NCBI RefSeq assembly: GCF_002224365.1 | Contig: NZ_CP022437.1 | Location: forward strand, 2,480,001 to 2,544,000 | DNA: 64,000 nt | Source of the DNA: Virgibacillus necropolis | Lineage (GTDB): Bacteria; Bacillota; Bacilli; Bacillales; Amphibacillaceae | Reading direction: 5' to 3' | Shown: one piece after another, positions 46,891-59,910 of the stretch | How positions within the stretch are numbered: position 1 is the stretch's first letter | Layout: every line of letters starts with the position of its first letter | The notes under the pieces: generated by a model | Told to the model about the DNA's origin: nothing | Databases searched by the model: none | Seen by the model: the letters and a program-made list of their open reading frames with translations, nothing else | Program-made: the position numbers and the translations under genes

Positions 46891-46900
46891 GTAATCCCTT

Positions 46901-47674
46901 CTATCTGTGTACTTTAGCCAATGTTTTTTTAAGTTTGAAGATAGCTTTTTTATGTATTTGTGAAATTCTAGATGTCGTTAAGTCCAGTACTTGTCCAATT
47001 TCAGTTAATGTTAGTTCTTCATTATAAAACAAACTAATAACTAGTTGTTCATTAACATTTAATAATTTTATACTTTTCGCTAATTCTTTATTGGTCTCAC
47101 TTGTTGTTAAATGATTATCTGGGGACGCGGAAATATGATCAGCGATTGCATAGCCAATCCCCTCTTTGTGATCACTATGACCATCTTTAGACTTTTCTTC
47201 AATTGATAATACATTTGCAAACAGAGAATCCTTCGTATATGTTTCAACTTCTTGAGCGGTCATATTTAATTCTTTTGCAATCTCATTGGAAGAAGGTGTA
47301 CGTTGATGAACTTGCTCAAGGTGCCCAGAAACCTGTTCAATCTTTTTTGTTTTTTCACGAATTGATCTAGGCAACCAATCTTCCTTTCTGAGCCCATCAA
47401 TAATGGCACCTCTAACTCGAAATGAAGCATACGTGTCGAACTTTAAGTCCCTACTTGATTCAAATTTCTTAACTGCATCATACAACCCCATTAATCCAAA
47501 ACTTTTCAAGTCATCTTTGTTTACATTTTTGGGTAAATGAGTCGCAATCCGCTCAACGTGAAAATTTACTAGATACATATAATTTTTGATAAGCTCATTA
47601 GCAGCATTCGAGTCGTGCGTAGAAAACCAATTTTCCCATAACTGTTTCTCTATAGGAGTTTTATCCGTATTCAT
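46901..47674 (-). CDS. sigD: RNA polymerase sigma factor SigD (FliA type)
   Basis: A 257-residue sigma-28 factor directing flagellin, motility and autolysin genes. It shows region 2 (YLVNFHVERIATHLPKNV; LKSFGLMGLYDAVKKFE), region 3 and region 4 (ELTLTEIGQVLDLTTSRISQ). GGGAGG lies about ten bases before the ATG. It is intact although the chemotaxis genes upstream of it are broken or lost. A small reading frame (47671-47784) ends on its start codon. Confidence 0.97.
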   Translation of the reverse strand: MNTDKTPIEKQLWENWFSTHDSNAANELIKNYMYLVNFHVERIATHLPKNVNKDDLKSFGLMGLYDAVKKFESSRDLKFDTYASFRVRGAIIDGLRKEDWLPRSIREKTKKIEQVSGHLEQVHQRTPSSNEIAKELNMTAQEVETYTKDSLFANVLSIEEKSKDGHSDHKEGIGYAIADHISASPDNHLTTSETNKELAKSIKLLNVNEQLVISLFYNEELTLTEIGQVLDLTTSRISQIHKKAIFKLKKTLAKVHR

Positions 47675-47784
47675 AGTAAGTGTTCCTCCCTTTTATTCCA
47701 CTGAAGGAAAGTATAAAAGATTCTAAGGAAATCAGTATACGAAATACTTCGCCATTCGCTAGATAATCCATTATTAAAATCCAT
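47671..47784 (-). pseudogene. 37-codon remnant reading frame between cheW remnant and sigD
   Basis: The frame starts ATG (AAAGG ten bases upstream) and reads MDFNNGLSSEWRSISY, ending in a stop that overlaps the sigD start (ATGA). It stands where cheC and cheD are found in B. subtilis. It shows no recognisable CheC or CheD motif. The likeliest reading is a junction left by deletion, joining the start of one gene to the end of another; a true small protein cannot be excluded. Confidence 0.35.
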
Positions 47785-47790
47785 GTTTGA

Positions 47791-47934
47791 TTAACCTTTC
47801 GCGTCTTGTAGTGTATCAACTTCATCTTTGGAAAGCACTTTTTGTAAGTCTAATAAAATCAATAAACGATCCTCTAATTTAGCTACACCCTCGATATAGT
47901 CCACGTCAACAGTTCCAACTACTTCTGGTGCTGG
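47791..47934 (-). pseudogene. cheW: C-terminal remnant of cheW
   Basis: In a frame different from cheA the minus strand encodes PAPEVVGTVDVDYIEG, VAKLEDRLLILLDLQKVL and SKDEVDTLQDAKG, then a stop (47791-47793). This matches the C-terminal end of CheW (the VDYIEGV.K...RLLILLDL pattern). The first two thirds of CheW, and its start codon, are missing; the remnant joins directly to codon about 404 of cheA. CheW is the adaptor that couples CheA to receptors, so no functional product is expected from this copy. Confidence 0.85.
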
Positions 47935-49144
47935 CTAGTGTTAATGGTAGTTGAATAGAGAAAGTAGACCCTTTGCCTAGTTTTGTATCTATTGTAATAG
48001 TACCTCCAAGTGATTCAATTGTACTTTTTACCACATCTAAACCAACTCCACGGCCAGATATGTCAGTAATCGTTTCCGCTGTTGAAAAACCACTCGCCAT
48101 GATAAGTTCATAAACTTGTTGATCAGCCAAAGTTCCCGCTTGGTTTTCTGTAATTACACCGTCTGACAGTGCCTTATTTAAAACTTTATCTTTATTAATA
48201 CCAGCGCCATCATCAGAGATTTCAATAAATACATGATTTCCACTATAGTAAGCATGTAATTTGATTGTTCCATGTTTAGGTTTCCCATTGACCTTCCTAA
48301 CATTTGGGGCTTCAATTCCGTGATCCATTGCATTTCGTATTAAATGAACAAATGGATCTCCAATCTTATCGATAACAGTCCGATCCAATTCAGTTTCAGC
48401 GCCAACAATTTCAATTTCAACGTTTTTACCAAGATCGCGTGCTAACCGTCTAATCATTTGCGGGAAACGACTGAAGACTTGTTCAACAGGTACCATGCGC
48501 ATTGTTAAAATCATACGCTGTAAGTCACTTGATACTCTTGACATTCTTTCTACCGTAGCTTGTAAATCATTGTGATTTAATTCAGAGGAAATTTGTTCTA
48601 ATCTTCCTCGGTCAATAACTAATTCATCAAACAAATTTATCAAACTATCTAATCGCTCAATATTGACTCTTATTGTTTTGCTCGAAGAACTTTTCTTTTT
48701 AACCCCGAGTACATCTGTCATTTTTTCACCTGAAGCAATTGTTTTTGGTGTAGAAACAACACAATCACCATTTTCTATTTTCTTCAGGCTATCAATAATT
48801 TGTTCCATATCCCGCTTACCGTTGCCGCCACCCGTAATACTTTCAACCATTGCATTTAAATGATCTACCGATTCAAATAAAACATCCATGGTTTCCGTTG
48901 TAATTATGATTTTGTCATACCGTATTCCGTCAAATATATTCTCAAGTTGATGTGTTAAATTAGCTAGATCATCAAATCCCATTGCTGCAGACATACCTTT
49001 TAGTGTGTGAGCAGACCTAAATATGTCATCAATAGTTGATTTCTCAGTTGGATTCTTTTCGAGTGCTATTAATTGTTTATAGAGTGATTCGAGATGTTCA
49101 TTACTTTCATCTAGAAAAACATCCAAATAGTGTGCTGTATCCAT
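47906..49144 (-). CDS. cheA: Truncated chemotaxis histidine kinase CheA (lacks P2 and P5 domains)
   Basis: The 412-residue product has the P1 phosphotransfer domain with His46 (SAHTLKGMSAAMG), a short linker, the P3 dimerisation domain from about 166 (TIRVNIERLDSLINLFDELV) and the P4 kinase domain (N box HLIRNAMDHGIE; DDGAGIN; GRGVGLDVVK). Compared with B. subtilis CheA (about 670 residues), P2, which binds CheY/CheB, is missing between P1 and P3, and P5, which binds CheW and receptors, is replaced after LPLTLA by STRSSWNC and a stop. AGGGGGG precedes the ATG. It may still autophosphorylate, but receptor control should be lost. cheB is absent upstream. Confidence 0.9.
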   Translation of the reverse strand: MDTAHYLDVFLDESNEHLESLYKQLIALEKNPTEKSTIDDIFRSAHTLKGMSAAMGFDDLANLTHQLENIFDGIRYDKIIITTETMDVLFESVDHLNAMVESITGGGNGKRDMEQIIDSLKKIENGDCVVSTPKTIASGEKMTDVLGVKKKSSSSKTIRVNIERLDSLINLFDELVIDRGRLEQISSELNHNDLQATVERMSRVSSDLQRMILTMRMVPVEQVFSRFPQMIRRLARDLGKNVEIEIVGAETELDRTVIDKIGDPFVHLIRNAMDHGIEAPNVRKVNGKPKHGTIKLHAYYSGNHVFIEISDDGAGINKDKVLNKALSDGVITENQAGTLADQQVYELIMASGFSTAETITDISGRGVGLDVVKSTIESLGGTITIDTKLGKGSTFSIQLPLTLASTRSSWNC

Positions 49145-49174
49145 TTTACATCCCCCCTAACTTCTAATTGCCAT

Positions 49175-50038
49175 TCACCTCTCAACCAGTAATCGTTTCA
49201 ACCTTTGCACGAATGAAGTGGCCACTTTTTTGTCTGTTGTATATGAGTTTTGTAAATAATTTCCTACAATTTGTTTGATTGCTTTTGAAATAGCCGCATT
49301 TTCATTAAGAATACTGTATGGTATTTGCCTAATTACTGAAGCTGAAACGGTACGGTCATCGGGTAGGATCCCCATTTGTTGCGTTTCAATAGTTAGAAAT
49401 TGGGAAATAACACGTTGAAATCGATCAAGTGCTTTTTTACCAGTTTTATAGGTTAACGAACGATTCATCACCAGATATATCGGCATTTGGCCTTGATTGC
49501 TTACGATGTGTTTGATCATGCCATATGCATCTGTTATCGATGTTGGCTCAGGCGTAGTAATCGTGATGCATTCGTCTGATGCCACGATGAAAAATAAACT
49601 TTCCTTTGAGGCACCTGCCCCCATGTCAAAAATAATGTAATCGTATAGCTTAACTAATTCATTGTATTGATTCAGGAAATAATCTTTTTTATCATCACTC
49701 AATGTAAAAAAGTTTGATAGACCATTTCCAGCCGCGATAAAGGCAAGATTATTGGGTCCATTCTCAATAATGTCGTGAATCTTTAACTGTTGATCAAACA
49801 TATCTACAATCGTTTTTGTTGCATGTAACCCTAGCAAAATATCGATATTACCCATTCCGATATCTAAATCCACTAACAGAACTTTTTTTCCGGTTTTTAT
49901 AAGTTCTAGTGAAAAATTAATTGCGAAATTAGACTTCCCCACTCCGCCTTTTCCACTGACAATAGAAATGGTTTTGGCTTGCCTTGAGTCCTTCGACTGC
50001 TGTAATTTACGTCGCAAATTCATGGCTTGATCATTCAT
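49175..50038 (-). CDS. flhG: Flagellar number regulator FlhG (YlxH, MinD-like ATPase)
   Basis: A 287-residue ParA/MinD-type ATPase with the deviant Walker A SGKGGVGKSNFAINF, the LVDLDIGMGNIDILLG switch and a C-terminal amphipathic stretch (QRLKRLLVE) for membrane binding. It controls flagellar number and placement with FlhF and promotes C-ring assembly. The ATG at 50038 follows GGGTGAG; it overlaps flhF by eight bases. cheB normally follows, but the truncated cheA follows directly after 30 bases. Confidence 0.95.
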   Translation of the reverse strand: MNDQAMNLRRKLQQSKDSRQAKTISIVSGKGGVGKSNFAINFSLELIKTGKKVLLVDLDIGMGNIDILLGLHATKTIVDMFDQQLKIHDIIENGPNNLAFIAAGNGLSNFFTLSDDKKDYFLNQYNELVKLYDYIIFDMGAGASKESLFFIVASDECITITTPEPTSITDAYGMIKHIVSNQGQMPIYLVMNRSLTYKTGKKALDRFQRVISQFLTIETQQMGILPDDRTVSASVIRQIPYSILNENAAISKAIKQIVGNYLQNSYTTDKKVATSFVQRLKRLLVER

Positions 50039-51155
50039 CACGATACTCACCCACTATATATTCACTAATTTTCACAGGTGAAGGCTTAACTATATCATCA
50101 GGCACATCTTGACCATTTGTCATGTAAGCAATTCCTACCTGGTTTTGAAGTGCTAGGTTAATCATGCTTCCATATTGTCTTGTTTCATCAATTTTAGTAA
50201 AAATAAATTCTTTTATTGCAATATGTTGAAATTGTTCACTGATTTTCTGTAAATCGTTCGGTTTTGCTGTTAAAGATAACACCAGATATGTTTCTATCTC
50301 GTCATTAAAATCAATGCTTTGTTCCAATTCATGTACGTATTTCGGATCTCGAAAATTACGACCCGCAGTATCAACAAGAATCAAATCATAATCCGCGAAC
50401 TTCTCGACAGCTTCTTTATAGTCTTTATTATCATAAGCAACCGCTAAAGGTACATCCAATATTTTCGCATATGTTTTTAATTGCTCAATAGCAGCAATTC
50501 GATAGGTGTCAGCAGTGATAAAGGCCACTTTTTTATGATTGTTCAACACACTGTCAGCAGCAACTTTGGCAATTGTTGTTGTTTTTCCAACCCCTGTTGG
50601 TCCGACGAAATGAATAATCCTCTTGTTGTATGTTATCCCTTCAAATGAAAGTGTTAAAAGTTGAGAAGTGATTTCTTTCATTGTATCCTGAAAAATAACA
50701 TGCTGTTCTGGTTCACTATCACTATCATTTTTATGTTGATCGATAACTGTACGGACTATCTTGGATGCTAATGATTGGGAAACTTCCTGGTCAATTAAGT
50801 GTTGATAAACCATATTGTACTGCGAGGTAAAATTTGTTTTAACTTGTTGATTTTGTACCTCAAGTAATTTCTTTAGATGCTTAATTTCACTAAGGACATT
50901 TTTATTTATTGACTGATCGGATTGAACTTTTTTATGTGGAGCTTTGTCAAGTGATTGATAGACTTCCGGCTTAGGCTTTGTCGGTTGTGGGTCAAGTGCA
51001 GCGATAACTTCAATGCTTCTTTTTTTAAATAACCCAAAAAGGCTACCATTTCTTACTTCTTTTGAATTTAATATGACCGCATCAGCACCAAGTTCCTTGC
51101 GAATTTGATGCATTGCTTCAGGCATTGTTGCCGCTACATACTTCTTTACCTTCAT
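50031..51155 (-). CDS. flhF: Flagellar biosynthesis SRP-family GTPase FlhF
   Basis: A 374-residue GTPase related to Ffh/FtsY that localises flagella. It has an N-terminal basic B domain, a linker, and the NG domain with GPTGVGKTTTIAKVA, DTYRIAAIEQLKTYA and DTAGRNFRD. The ATG overlaps the flhA stop by four bases (ATGA), so translation is coupled. The family length is about 366. Confidence 0.96.
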   Translation of the reverse strand: MKVKKYVAATMPEAMHQIRKELGADAVILNSKEVRNGSLFGLFKKRSIEVIAALDPQPTKPKPEVYQSLDKAPHKKVQSDQSINKNVLSEIKHLKKLLEVQNQQVKTNFTSQYNMVYQHLIDQEVSQSLASKIVRTVIDQHKNDSDSEPEQHVIFQDTMKEITSQLLTLSFEGITYNKRIIHFVGPTGVGKTTTIAKVAADSVLNNHKKVAFITADTYRIAAIEQLKTYAKILDVPLAVAYDNKDYKEAVEKFADYDLILVDTAGRNFRDPKYVHELEQSIDFNDEIETYLVLSLTAKPNDLQKISEQFQHIAIKEFIFTKIDETRQYGSMINLALQNQVGIAYMTNGQDVPDDIVKPSPVKISEYIVGEYRDE

Positions 51156-53185: not shown

Positions 53186-53215
53186 ATATGTAACCCCTTT
53201 TTGCTAGGCTGTTTT

Positions 53216-53894
53216 CTAAAAGATTGTTGTTTTTGACACAAAGACTGCGACGTAACTTACCGCCACAAAAATACATTATGACAAAACTGCTGGTTGTTTT
53301 CCGTTGCGCCTCCTTGTGCTTTCGCACGAGGCCACTGAAAAAGTTAAGTGTAGTACAAAATAGTGAATCGACGGCCGCATCCTCGAATATACTCCGCTTT
53401 CCACGGGCGAGTGGCGAGCCTATTCGGACTGCCGTCCTCCGGGGTCTCGCCGATCTCTTACTTCCCGTAGGAGTCTCCGTATATTCGAGGATGCTAGGTT
53501 AAAGTGAGAAATTTAATTTCTCAAATCCATCCTTTTTCAGTGGACTCAAAATCGCTTTGCGTGGTCTTCAAACTCGTGCTATTCCCGCAGGAGTCAACGG
53601 TCCTCCGCTCCAATCAACTGCCTTAATTGCAGGATGTCTTTATATAAGCAAACAGTAACCCAGGAAATTGTTAAACTGAACACTAGTGAAGGAAATCCAC
53701 GTAGACTCCTGCTTAGAAAGCGAAGACGATGAGACCCCGCAGAGAGCGATCTTTGCAATCGAGGAGGCTCATCGCGAGCCCTAAGGTGCGCGAAGTGGAT
53801 TTCCGGAACGGTTGTCCAACCACCAAACAAAGTACTTACGCCGTATCCTATATCAACTTCGGTGGTATGAGCAACGAACATACGAAAATAGCCT
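53216..53894. mobile_element. 679-bp MITE-like element in the flagellar operon (AGGCTGTTTTC ends)
   Basis: It begins AGGCTGTTTTC and ends GAAAATAGCCT, inverted repeats with one mismatch. Read on the minus strand, its right end matches the left end of the element at 12165-12518 (CAACCGTTCCGGAAATCCAC and a CCGAAGTTGAT block) and its left end matches the other's right end (GTTACGTCGCAG; TGTGTCAA). It is thus a second, inverted copy with a different interior and a nested element. No transposase is encoded. Confidence 0.75.
53332..53543. mobile_element. 212-bp nested palindromic element (CCACTGAAAAAG ends)
   Basis: It begins CCACTGAAAAAG and ends CTTTTTCAGTGG. Inside, GCATCCTCGAATATAC pairs with GTATATTCGAGGATGC nearer the middle. 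The interior is GC-rich compared with the surroundings. No coding potential was recognised, and no target duplication was clear. It lies inside the element at 53216-53894, so it arrived later. Confidence 0.7.
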
Positions 53895-53913
53895 AACGAA
53901 AAGAGTCCTTTTG

Positions 53914-57391: not shown

Positions 57392-57754
57392 TTAGTTTAA
57401 AGCCTTTTGTATAGCTTCTATTACGCGGTCTGCTTGGAATGGTTTGACAATAAAATCTTTTGCCCCTGCTTGTATAGCATCAATCACCATAGCCTGCTGG
57501 CCCATTGCAGAACACATTATTATTTTCGCTTGAGGATTTGCCTCTCTTATTTTCTTTAAAGAGGTAATCCCATCCATTTCAGGCATTGTAATGTCCATTG
57601 TCACTAAATCTGGTGTTAATTCGTTATATTTTTCAATGGCTTCCGCGCCATCCTGTGCTTCGCCTACTACCTCAAAGCCATTTTTACTTAAAATATCTTT
57701 TATCATCATACGCATGAATGCCGCATCATCTACGATTAAAATACGTTGTCCCAT
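57392..57754 (-). CDS. cheY: Chemotaxis response regulator CheY
   Basis: A 120-residue receiver domain with the acidic pair Asp9-Asp10, phosphoacceptor Asp54 (TMDITMPEMDG), the switch serine in CSAMGQQ and Lys in the VKPF motif. It is complete. GGGGG precedes the ATG at 57754. Phosphorylated CheY binds the switch proteins FliM/FliY. Its phosphodonor CheA is truncated in this window, so CheY may be unphosphorylated, or served by another kinase. Confidence 0.95.
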   Translation of the reverse strand: MGQRILIVDDAAFMRMMIKDILSKNGFEVVGEAQDGAEAIEKYNELTPDLVTMDITMPEMDGITSLKKIREANPQAKIIMCSAMGQQAMVIDAIQAGAKDFIVKPFQADRVIEAIQKALN

Positions 57755-57776
57755 TATGCTTTCCCCCATCAATTTT

Positions 57777-58925
57777 TCATTTGAGTTTCATAAGCCTTTC
57801 TGACTGGCTTATGATATCTGTTAAGCGAACTCCAAAGCTCTCATCAATAACCACTACTTCACCTTTTGCGATTAATTTCTTATTAACGAATACGTCAACG
57901 GGCTCACCAGCTAATTTATCTAATTCAATAATTGATCCTGACGATAAATCTAATATATCTTTAATCGTTCTCTTTGTACGCCCAAGTTCCACAGTAACCT
58001 TTAATGGAATATCTAGTAACAAATCTAGGTTACGTTGGTTATTTTCACTTAGCCCCACCTGGTCAAATGTAGAGAATGTAGCCTGATGTATATTAGTTGA
58101 TGATCGATTCACATTTTCACCCAAATATTGTGGTTTAGGTTGTGAGGTTTCTTCTTGACCTTTATGTAGATTTCGCTCATTACTAGCTTGTTTTTCGATC
58201 TCTCCAACTGCAGCTTGCTTTTCGTTTATTTCTGCTTGTGAACTTTTCATTAACTCATCAACAAGTTGATTTGCAAAAGGGATTGGAATTAATTGCATTA
58301 TAGTTGAATCAATTAATGTTCCTACCTTTAGTTGGAAGGAAACCTTTACAAATACGTTTTCGTTCCCATTTAGTTCATCTTTCACGTTGTTTTGGCCATT
58401 TCGTAGTTTGATAATTGGTGGTGAGATATCAACTTTCTTTTCAAAAATCGTAGACATACTAGTTGCAGCAGCGCCCATCATTTGATTCATAACTTCCTGT
58501 ACTGCACTAATATGAATATCATTTAATTCTTCTGATGGATTTGTTCCATCACCACCAAGCATAATATCGGAAATGATAGAAGCGTCTTCCGAATTAATAA
58601 CAAAAACGTTCTGACCGATAAAACCTTCTATGTATTTCACCTCAACCCTAACATGGTTAAAGGTAAATTCCCTTGTTAGATCCTCTTGCTTAATAACAGA
58701 CACTTGAGGTGTTGTAATTTCGACTTTTTGACTTAATAATGTAGAAAGTGTGGTTGCAGAACTTCCAAACGAAATATTACCAATCTCACCAAGTGTATCC
58801 TCTTCTATGGTAGTTAAAAAATTGGAATTATCGATATCCTCTATAGCAGTTTCTATCTCATCATCTGATCCTACCTTTAAAAGTGCATCTATTTCATCCT
58901 GGGAAAGCATGCCATCATTCGTCAT
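57777..58925 (-). CDS. fliY: Flagellar motor switch phosphatase FliY
   Basis: A 382-residue Bacillus-type switch protein. The N-terminal part carries a CheY-P-binding-like peptide, the middle is a CheC-like phosphatase with two E..N active-site pairs (TLGEIGNISFGSSA and ISAVQEVMNQMMGAAA), and the C-terminus (about 295-380) is the FliN/SpoA domain (DIPLKVTVELGRTKRTIKDI). GGGGG precedes the ATG at 58925. It overlaps the end of fliM by 11 bases. It is the only CheY-P phosphatase left here, as cheC is missing. Confidence 0.95.
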   Translation of the reverse strand: MTNDGMLSQDEIDALLKVGSDDEIETAIEDIDNSNFLTTIEEDTLGEIGNISFGSSATTLSTLLSQKVEITTPQVSVIKQEDLTREFTFNHVRVEVKYIEGFIGQNVFVINSEDASIISDIMLGGDGTNPSEELNDIHISAVQEVMNQMMGAAATSMSTIFEKKVDISPPIIKLRNGQNNVKDELNGNENVFVKVSFQLKVGTLIDSTIMQLIPIPFANQLVDELMKSSQAEINEKQAAVGEIEKQASNERNLHKGQEETSQPKPQYLGENVNRSSTNIHQATFSTFDQVGLSENNQRNLDLLLDIPLKVTVELGRTKRTIKDILDLSSGSIIELDKLAGEPVDVFVNKKLIAKGEVVVIDESFGVRLTDIISQSERLMKLK

Positions 58926-59910
58926 CCCTGTTTCCCCCTTCAATTTCTTCTAATACTTGTACTGAAATTTTATTTCTTAGTTTACCTGGCTGCACATAAA
59001 ACTTAGGTTCATTATTAATTTCCAACGTTAATGGATCTTCAATAGACTGGTTTAAACCAATGATGTCGTTCCTTTGTAAGTTTAAAAATTCATCGATATT
59101 AATCGTCGTTTGACCTAATAGAGTTTTCGCTTCTACCTTAGCTAGCTTAATATTTTCTGTAAGCTTGCTGTATGTTTCTGGGTCTCTATTTTTTGTTGTC
59201 GTTTGCATCCAATAGTGAACAGATAATTTTGGAATAATCGGTTCGAGAACAATATGCGGGATACAAATATTAATCAAACCGCTTGCTTCTCCAATAGTTG
59301 TGTTTAAAGATACAATAATAACTGTTTCATTTGGGGAAACCATTTGTAAAAATTGCGGATTCACCTCAAAATCTTCTAATACTGGATCAATTTCTATTAT
59401 CGATGCCCATGCTTCTTGCAGATTAACAACAGCCTTTTCAAAGAGCTGTGACATCAACAACGTTTCAATTTCAGTTAAGTTCTCTACCTTGTTGACACTG
59501 TTTCCTTTTCCCCCTAAAACTCTATCCAACATACCATATGCAATGTTCGGATTTACCTCCATCAGTATACGACCTTCTAAGGGGGCAACACTAAATATAT
59601 TTAATACAGTCATTTTAGGTACCGAACGAATAAATTCTTCATATGGAATTTGATCAACCGATGCAACAGATATATTTACATATGTTCTTAGTTGTGCCGA
59701 AAAGAATGTCGTTAACAACCGGGCATAATTTTCGTGAATCCTAGATATACTTCTAACCTGGTCTTTCGAGAAGCGCAATGCTCTCTTGAAATCATAGACT
59801 CGAACTTTTTTTTCTTTTTCTTCTTTTTTTAATTCTTCAGCATTCATCTCACCAGTTGAAATAGCTGATAACAGTGCATCAATCTCATTTTGTGACAGTA
59901 CTTCTTCCAC
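58915..59910 (-). CDS. fliM: Flagellar motor switch protein FliM
   Basis: A 331-residue C-ring protein with the N-terminal CheY-P-binding motif LSQNEIDALLSAIS, a CheC-like core and a C-terminal SpoA domain. The start codon is GTG with GGAGGTGAGGG upstream. Family length is about 332. Confidence 0.97.
   Translation of the reverse strand: MEEVLSQNEIDALLSAISTGEMNAEELKKEEKEKKVRVYDFKRALRFSKDQVRSISRIHENYARLLTTFFSAQLRTYVNISVASVDQIPYEEFIRSVPKMTVLNIFSVAPLEGRILMEVNPNIAYGMLDRVLGGKGNSVNKVENLTEIETLLMSQLFEKAVVNLQEAWASIIEIDPVLEDFEVNPQFLQMVSPNETVIIVSLNTTIGEASGLINICIPHIVLEPIIPKLSVHYWMQTTTKNRDPETYSKLTENIKLAKVEAKTLLGQTTINIDEFLNLQRNDIIGLNQSIEDPLTLEINNEPKFYVQPGKLRNKISVQVLEEIEGGNRDDE

Follow-up and report, generated by a model that had tools for sequence, protein, structure and literature searches.

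A CheA kinase core without its receptor-coupling domain in the flagellar operon of Virgibacillus necropolis, and P5-less counterparts in other CheW-free genomes

The flagellar operon and its shortened cheA gene

The main flagellar operon, on the minus strand, runs through the window analyzed here, a 64,000-nucleotide stretch of the Virgibacillus necropolis genome. The operon reads flgB, flgC, fliE, fliF, fliG, fliH, fliI and fliJ (L132), followed by fliK, flgD and a flgE-like gene, continues with fliL, fliM, fliY, cheY, fliO, fliP, fliQ, fliR, flhB, flhA, flhF and flhG, and after flhG has a short cheA gene, sigD and a swrB-like gene. All frames of the operon are open, and from flhB to swrB the gene lengths were compared with those of relatives. 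The names in the flgB-flgE stretch are assumed from the Bacillus operon order and from the look of the proteins, and those of fliL, fliM and fliO to fliR are presumed with the aid of matches among relatives; the other genes were named by tblastn, Pfam or NCBIfam. The genes on both sides of cheA are intact: sigD (46901..47674, minus strand) encodes 257 aa that match Virgibacillus oceani, the closest named relative (L044), at 72% over 255 aa, and flhG (49175..50050, minus strand) encodes 291 aa that match the same species at 63%. Also intact are cheY (57392..57772, minus strand; Pfam Response_reg and an alignment of 10 genomes) and fliY (57777..58943, minus strand; NCBIfam NF005995, 492 bits, cut-off 218), and fliM (58915..59910, minus strand) has in the alignment an N-terminal LSQNEIDALL peptide. 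CheY conserves the acidic pair, the phospho-Asp, the Ser and the Lys, and FliY has an N-terminal LSQDEIDALL peptide together with both CheC-like phosphatase sites, as judged by site motifs. The switch-side residues of these three proteins are intact in all 10 aligned genomes (a set that excludes G058). Retention of CheY failed as a separator of genomes with and without CheA, given that CheY, FliY and FliM are present in all ten.

Some differences from V. oceani are seen elsewhere in the operon. The region between flhB and flhA includes about 730 bp (53186-53913) without a plausible gene and with GC-rich, repeat-like stretches; the two genes are spaced by about 20 bp in V. oceani, and the gap is also enlarged, to about 510 bp, in G098. 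Beyond sigD, V. oceani has an ORF of 455 aa, which we read as FapA/DUF342-like, and an ORF of 107 aa, both of which are missing at 46891-46900 of the window, between sigD and the swrB-like gene.

The short cheA gene (47906..49144, minus strand; 412 aa plus stop, defined by ORF and Pfam) encodes P1 (approximately 48770-49144; Pfam Hpt, 64.6 bits, cut-off 24.6), a linker (approximately 48683-48769), P3 (48500-48682; Pfam H-kinase_dim, 57.6 bits, cut-off 23), a complete P4 (47936-48499; Pfam HATPase_c, 70 bits, profile positions 5-110 of 111) and a nine-codon tail (47909-47935), all on the minus strand. The protein ends with LPLTLA followed by STRSSWNC, and the stop lies nine codons past P4. The Pfam scan of this protein gave no match to P2 or to the CheW domain (P5; PF01584), and the same scan, used as a control, detects all five domains in the V. 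oceani CheA. Residues 1-141 (67%) and 295-542 (79%) of the V. oceani protein align with the window CheA, and its P2 with the linkers (residues 142-294) and its P5 (543-675) are unmatched in the window. The P1 residues H46, K49, H65 and E68 are all retained, as are 14 of the 14 catalytic-set residues in the N, G1, F and G2 boxes of P4 (box motifs of our choice). The frame is open across every retained domain and 0 of 18 catalytic residues are altered, so that neither a broken frame nor loss of catalytic residues from the retained domains, the signs by which a pseudogene would be predicted, is seen in the gene. An AlphaFold2 model (22 sequences; mean pLDDT 76.7, pTM 0.53) has the P1 helix bundle, two P3 helices and, as the last P4 strand, residues 392-400; the linker, the lid and the tail are of low confidence, with tail residues 404-412 below pLDDT 50. 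The product is probably a real, CheA-derived histidine kinase cut down to P1-P3-P4.

Downstream of P4 the DNA continues in another frame as the end of cheW. In particular, residues 110-156 of the V. oceani CheW match positions 47934-47794 (72%; tblastn E 1.5e-18), and the remnant (47791..47934, minus strand), out of the cheA frame, comprises the last 47 codons and the stop, from PAPEVVG to the gene's own stop at 47791-47793; chance similarity is rejected as its source. The junction, placed by comparison with the DNA of relatives, lies at about 47931-47936 (minus strand), between the cheA codons for LPLTL at the end of P4 and the cheW codons for PAPEVVG, and neither a repeat nor certain microhomology can be assigned there against the cheA and cheW DNA of relatives. 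A single deletion joining cheA to the end of cheW is the simplest account. Compared with four relatives, the remnant has z values of -1.5 to 1.0 and keeps 6 of 6 invariant columns, a level of conservation close to that of cheW tails in live genes. The cut in the window lineage is therefore likely to be recent, and it is likely to have come after the receptors and adaptation genes were lost. Much of the initial annotation is upheld by these results: the fusion that it described, of cheA to the out-of-frame end of cheW, is confirmed by the ORF end and the 47-codon match, with the junction exact; the absence of P2 and P5 from CheA is found alike by the Pfam scan and the V. oceani alignment; the lack of a PF01584 match accords with a product that has lost its receptor-coupling domain; and open frames and alignments agree that the flagellar genes, sigD, cheY and fliY are intact.

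The losses at the locus go beyond P5 and cheW; those of cheB, cheC and cheD had been overlooked in the initial annotation. V. oceani encodes cheB, a full cheA, cheW, cheC and cheD between flhG and sigD. At the cheB site, the window has a 30-bp gap between flhG and cheA (49145..49174), and a cheB query against positions 40001-64000 has the receiver domain of cheY as its only significant match; at the site of cheC and cheD lies a gap of 116 bp (47675..47790), and a cheC query gave significant matches in fliY only and a cheD query gave none. Four separate stretches are missing from the window, namely cheB, P2, P5 with all but the last third of cheW, and cheC-cheD.

The genome from which the window comes (G000) is a complete single contig of 4,337,422 bases. 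No CheW domain (PF01584) was found in the whole 4.34 Mb, and no CheR (PF01739) either in this genome or in that of G001, the only congener compared, which also lacks CheW, MCP and FlhA. An MCPsignal search of G000 yielded one match of 22 codons, below the family cut-off and reading HGKGFAVVADEVRKLAEQLNKE between stops, in an intergenic gap outside the window (L133:4831-4896, equal to G000:C1:4286330-4286395, plus strand); its neighbors look to us like a GNAT protein and bioY. This is the relic of a receptor signaling hairpin, the only chemoreceptor trace from the MCP search of this genome. The idea that chemotaxis might be encoded elsewhere is rejected by the CheW, CheR and MCPsignal searches of G000. 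The fusion could in principle stem from misassembly or have arisen by mutation in culture, and the cheW tail at the junction is indeed oddly intact. However, an intact cheA-cheW pair would stand alone on a complete contig without CheW, CheR or any receptor beyond the relic, and other genera reach the same end state; we regard this explanation as very improbable, whereas a strain-level mutation that occurred recently, after the older losses, is conceivable.

P5-less CheA in other lineages

Among 159 sampled genomes of the family, FlhA is encoded in 149 and a CheW domain in 144. FlhA without CheW is found in six genomes, four of which have a CheA P3 domain (G000, G028, G033 and G098) and two do not (G097 and G100). 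In 397 genomes sampled evenly across the order, the P3 domain occurs in 359 and the CheW domain in 359; comparison of the positive lists by hand gave two genomes with P3 and no CheW (G000 and G058) and two with CheW and no P3 (G357 and G490). Five P5-less CheAs were found, all in CheW-free genomes (G000, G028, G033, G058 and G098). All five end no more than 10 residues from the end of P4, and four are encoded at the flhG-sigD locus. Across 89 CheA loci, a set that is not unbiased, the P5-less proteins are 380-543 aa long, and none of the remaining 84 is shorter than 658 aa.

The CheAs of G028 (380 aa) and G033 (419 aa) are P1-P3-P4 proteins like that of the window, located in the flhG-sigD position at loci without cheB, cheW, cheC and cheD. 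The congener of G033, G067, has a full cheA, cheW, cheC and cheD; there is no cheB match between its flhG and cheA. In another family, G058 encodes in the flhG-sigD position a CheA of 529 aa with P1-P2-P3-P4. Its genus is represented in the sample by three genomes, one of them P5-less: G256 has P5 and cheW, and G223 lacks, like G058, cheB, cheW, cheC and cheD at the locus and retains P5 (its single CheW-domain match is taken as this P5). By gene content, G223 is an apparent intermediate state, and the order suggested for the window, with P5 deleted after the receptors and adaptation genes had gone, is also seen for P5 in G223. The G098 CheA (543 aa; P1-P2-P3-P4) is encoded at a different place and groups with a second CheA type, as in G179. 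MCPs were not found in G028, G033 or G058. That a short CheA alongside a separate CheW might be normal among relatives, which the initial annotation had allowed for, is borne out in its first half, by the P1-P3-P4 proteins at the same locus in G028 and G033 and the P5-less protein of G058; none of the three has a separate CheW.

A flagellar tree, built from five proteins and 30 of 33 rows (L106, L115 and L122, with too few columns, are omitted), groups the window and V. oceani (SH-aLRT 93), G033 and G067 (100) and, as a third group, G098, G097 and G093 (100). In the tree of the CheA core (35 rows, 377 columns), the window falls in the same small clade as V. oceani, adjoining L046 and L055 (90/74); G028 and G098 have long branches, and their exact placement is unsure. 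The P5-less rows need five changes on the core tree. Shared ancestry of all P5-less CheAs was rejected, with a single clade costing 201 log units (AU p 7e-84), and G028 and G033 as the sole pair were rejected as well (p 0.0125). The trees need five separate losses of P5.

CheY and FliY are kept in four genomes without a CheA P3 domain (G097, G100, G093 and G029), so that retention of CheY does not require CheA; given that flhF, flhG and sigD of G097 are full length without CheA P3, CheA is not indispensable either. CheA and CheY are therefore not tightly tied, which would be compatible with P1 serving as a phosphotransfer domain for some regulator besides CheY, such as one of sporulation or of stress signaling; the gene, however, is still found between flhG and sigD in four of the five cases, and we consider such a partner improbable.

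Other changes were observed in the same set of loci. In G100 (L136), which has FlhA and neither CheW nor CheA P3, flhF, flhG and sigD appear to have interrupted or truncated frames, and flagellar decay may be under way in this genome. The reverse loss, a flhG-sigD locus without cheA and with cheW kept, is seen in G029, G179 and G093 (L130, L131 and L137, respectively); a further, full cheA-cheW pair is encoded elsewhere in G179 (L150), and a CheA P3 domain is absent from both G029 and G093. The fliP match of G029 (L145:14142-14809) is split at residue 138/139, a possible frameshift.

Rates and constraint in the P5-less cores

We propose, with a probability of roughly 0.55, that after receptor loss the coupling domain was discarded and the kinase core was kept as a receptor-free source of CheY-P. 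The main rival to this CheY-kinase reading is slow decay, whereby che genes, useless without receptors, are deleted piecemeal and the short CheA is a functionless last piece. Stepwise losses are indeed visible in the cheW remnant, the MCP relic, G097 and G100 without CheA P3 and the congener G001 without FlhA, and the cut in the window looks recent. The P5-less cores also evolve faster, as under relaxed constraint, and so does the P5-bearing, CheW-less G223. End branches of the CheA tree measure 1.15 in G033 vs. 0.26 in G067, 1.14 in G058 vs. 0.57 in G223 and 1.41 in G098 vs. 0.54 in G179, with 1.89 in G028 and 0.52 in the window. When CheA distance is fitted on flagellar distance (131 pairs, 22 full-length taxa), the CheA excess is small for the window (z 1.3 to 1.6) and larger for G033 and G028 (z 2.2 to 5.8).

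The distribution of the changes, however, argues against decay. Across 29 full-length rows, excluding G223 and the five P5-less proteins, 130 columns are invariant, 18 of which make up the catalytic set that we picked from CheA and HATPase motifs. In the five P5-less proteins, none of the 90 catalytic cells is changed, whereas changes affect 100 of 557 cells in the other invariant columns (gaps excluded; Fisher p 8e-8) or, counting three gaps, 103 of 560 (p 5e-8). The difference is also seen within P4 (0/70 vs. 45/270, p 1e-5), without the window and G058 (0/54 vs. 63/335, p 3e-5) and after removal of the G058 columns that are also changed in the P5-bearing G223 (0/90 vs. 81/538, p 1.4e-6). 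G058 shares 19 of its 34 changed columns with G223, so that some of its drift had occurred before P5 was lost, and G223 itself, with P5 present, has 0 of 18 catalytic and 25 of 112 other invariant columns changed; the drift is therefore tied to the loss of CheW and receptors, not to that of P5. Compared with random missense changes, those at invariant columns were equaled in conservativeness by 0 of 2000 simulations for G028 and by 3 each for G058 and G098, and the result is less clear for the window (75 of 2000) and G033 (135 of 2000). All cuts fall at domain boundaries. If the whole excess were neutral, 6.3 stops would be expected in G033, 7.2 in G028, 5.0 in G058 and 2.3 in G098, about 21 in these four, whereas none is observed in the retained frames of the five P5-less CheAs.

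A custom codon model rejects omega 1 on each of the five P5-less branches (p 3e-4 or less), with values that are rough, since synonymous sites are saturated and three branch lengths reach or approach the bound; for G033, omega is 0.12 (omega 1 rejected, p 0.033) and, after two columns are dropped, 0.06 (p 3e-4). Omega exceeds the background in G033, G028, G058 and, weakly, G223 (p 0.037), and does not in G098 or the window. On the window branch omega is 0.019, with omega 1 rejected, but the cut is too recent for this value to tell neutral evolution from constraint. With a recent cut and CheA omega at background, the window gene alone is thus uninformative on selection after the cut, and the case for function rests more on the four other lineages. 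These selection statistics treat the lineages as independent. On balance, decay appears to us possible and rather unlikely as an account of the retained core.

Proposed role and comparison with known CheA proteins

The kinase core that, as we propose, is retained for CheY would have arisen in steps. First, the lineage would have lost receptors and adaptation genes; then, P5 would have been lost in one deletion with the greater part of cheW, after which the frame still read through to where P4 ends. The P1-P3-P4 core would dimerize via P3, bind ATP through P4 and phosphorylate its own P1 histidine, and such a dimer would be expected to retain basal, unregulated kinase activity. The phosphate would be passed straight to CheY, for which P2 is not strictly needed; according to the domain survey discussed below, P2 accelerates phosphotransfer without being required for it, and the coupling of CheA to CheW and receptors is the task of P5 (PMC10782961). 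The outcome would be steady, receptor-independent CheY-P, which FliY would remove at the motor, with the bias of a Bacillus-type motor thereby held toward runs; a flagellated relative free of receptors would benefit from such a constant supply. In B. subtilis, CheY-P increases runs, a cheY deletion causes exclusive tumbling and FliY is a CheY-P phosphatase (PMC340952). With CheY-P promoting runs in Bacillus-type motors, loss of the kinase would therefore push away from smooth swimming, and the early suggestion that motility may be smooth-swimming only points in the wrong direction.

A similarly stripped kinase in several lineages suggests that its job may persist. More broadly, P5 may not be a universal core domain of CheA: flagellated Bacilli that lose receptors might repeatedly converge on a P5-less CheA, selected as a constitutive CheY kinase that sets a fixed run bias, with the pathway reduced to a motor-bias generator. 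To this generalization we give an even chance. CheA is customarily treated as inseparable from its receptor-coupling domain, and five independent losses of P5 in CheW-free genomes show that, in nature, the kinase core can persist after the array is gone. The P5-less lineages are natural test cases for the action of CheA without receptors, and they suggest an order of dismantling with flagella kept, receptors and adaptation first and P5 last.

Bacterial CheAs in MiST, too, are presumably recognized by the CheW domain, the domain that served as the query by which archaeal CheAs were collected in a survey of 13,673 CheAs by Berry, Andrianova and Zhulin. That survey gives a frequency of 100% for the CheW (P5) domain among its CheAs, with H-kinase_dim always accompanied by HATPase_c and CheW (PMC10782961). 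With CheAs recognized in this manner, a P5-less CheA would be invisible to such a survey, and others that proceed likewise would miss these proteins. The absence of P2, which is common in the survey (nearly 52%), is shared by the window CheA, whereas P5, always present there, is absent from it (PMC10782961). The definition used in the survey excludes the window protein from CheA; its descent, its locus and its kinase core make it a CheA derivative. Among the titles and abstract starts listed by literature searches, with most subscription papers outside their coverage, none describes a natural P5-less CheA; the phrase "truncated CheA" occurs once in the available part of a Bradyrhizobium paper (PMC13390405).

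The window CheA shares with the canonical five-domain Bacillus-type protein (V. oceani L044; B. subtilis) the flhG-sigD place, P1, P3, P4, CheY and FliY, and differs from it in the absence of P5, P2, CheW and CheR in the genome, cheB, cheC and cheD at the locus and any receptor beyond the relic. Compared with the split CheA3/CheA4 of Rhodobacter sphaeroides, the parts of which reportedly belong to a chemoreceptor cluster (PMC6829392), the window CheA resides in a genome without receptor and CheW, but both systems depart from the standard five-domain chain.
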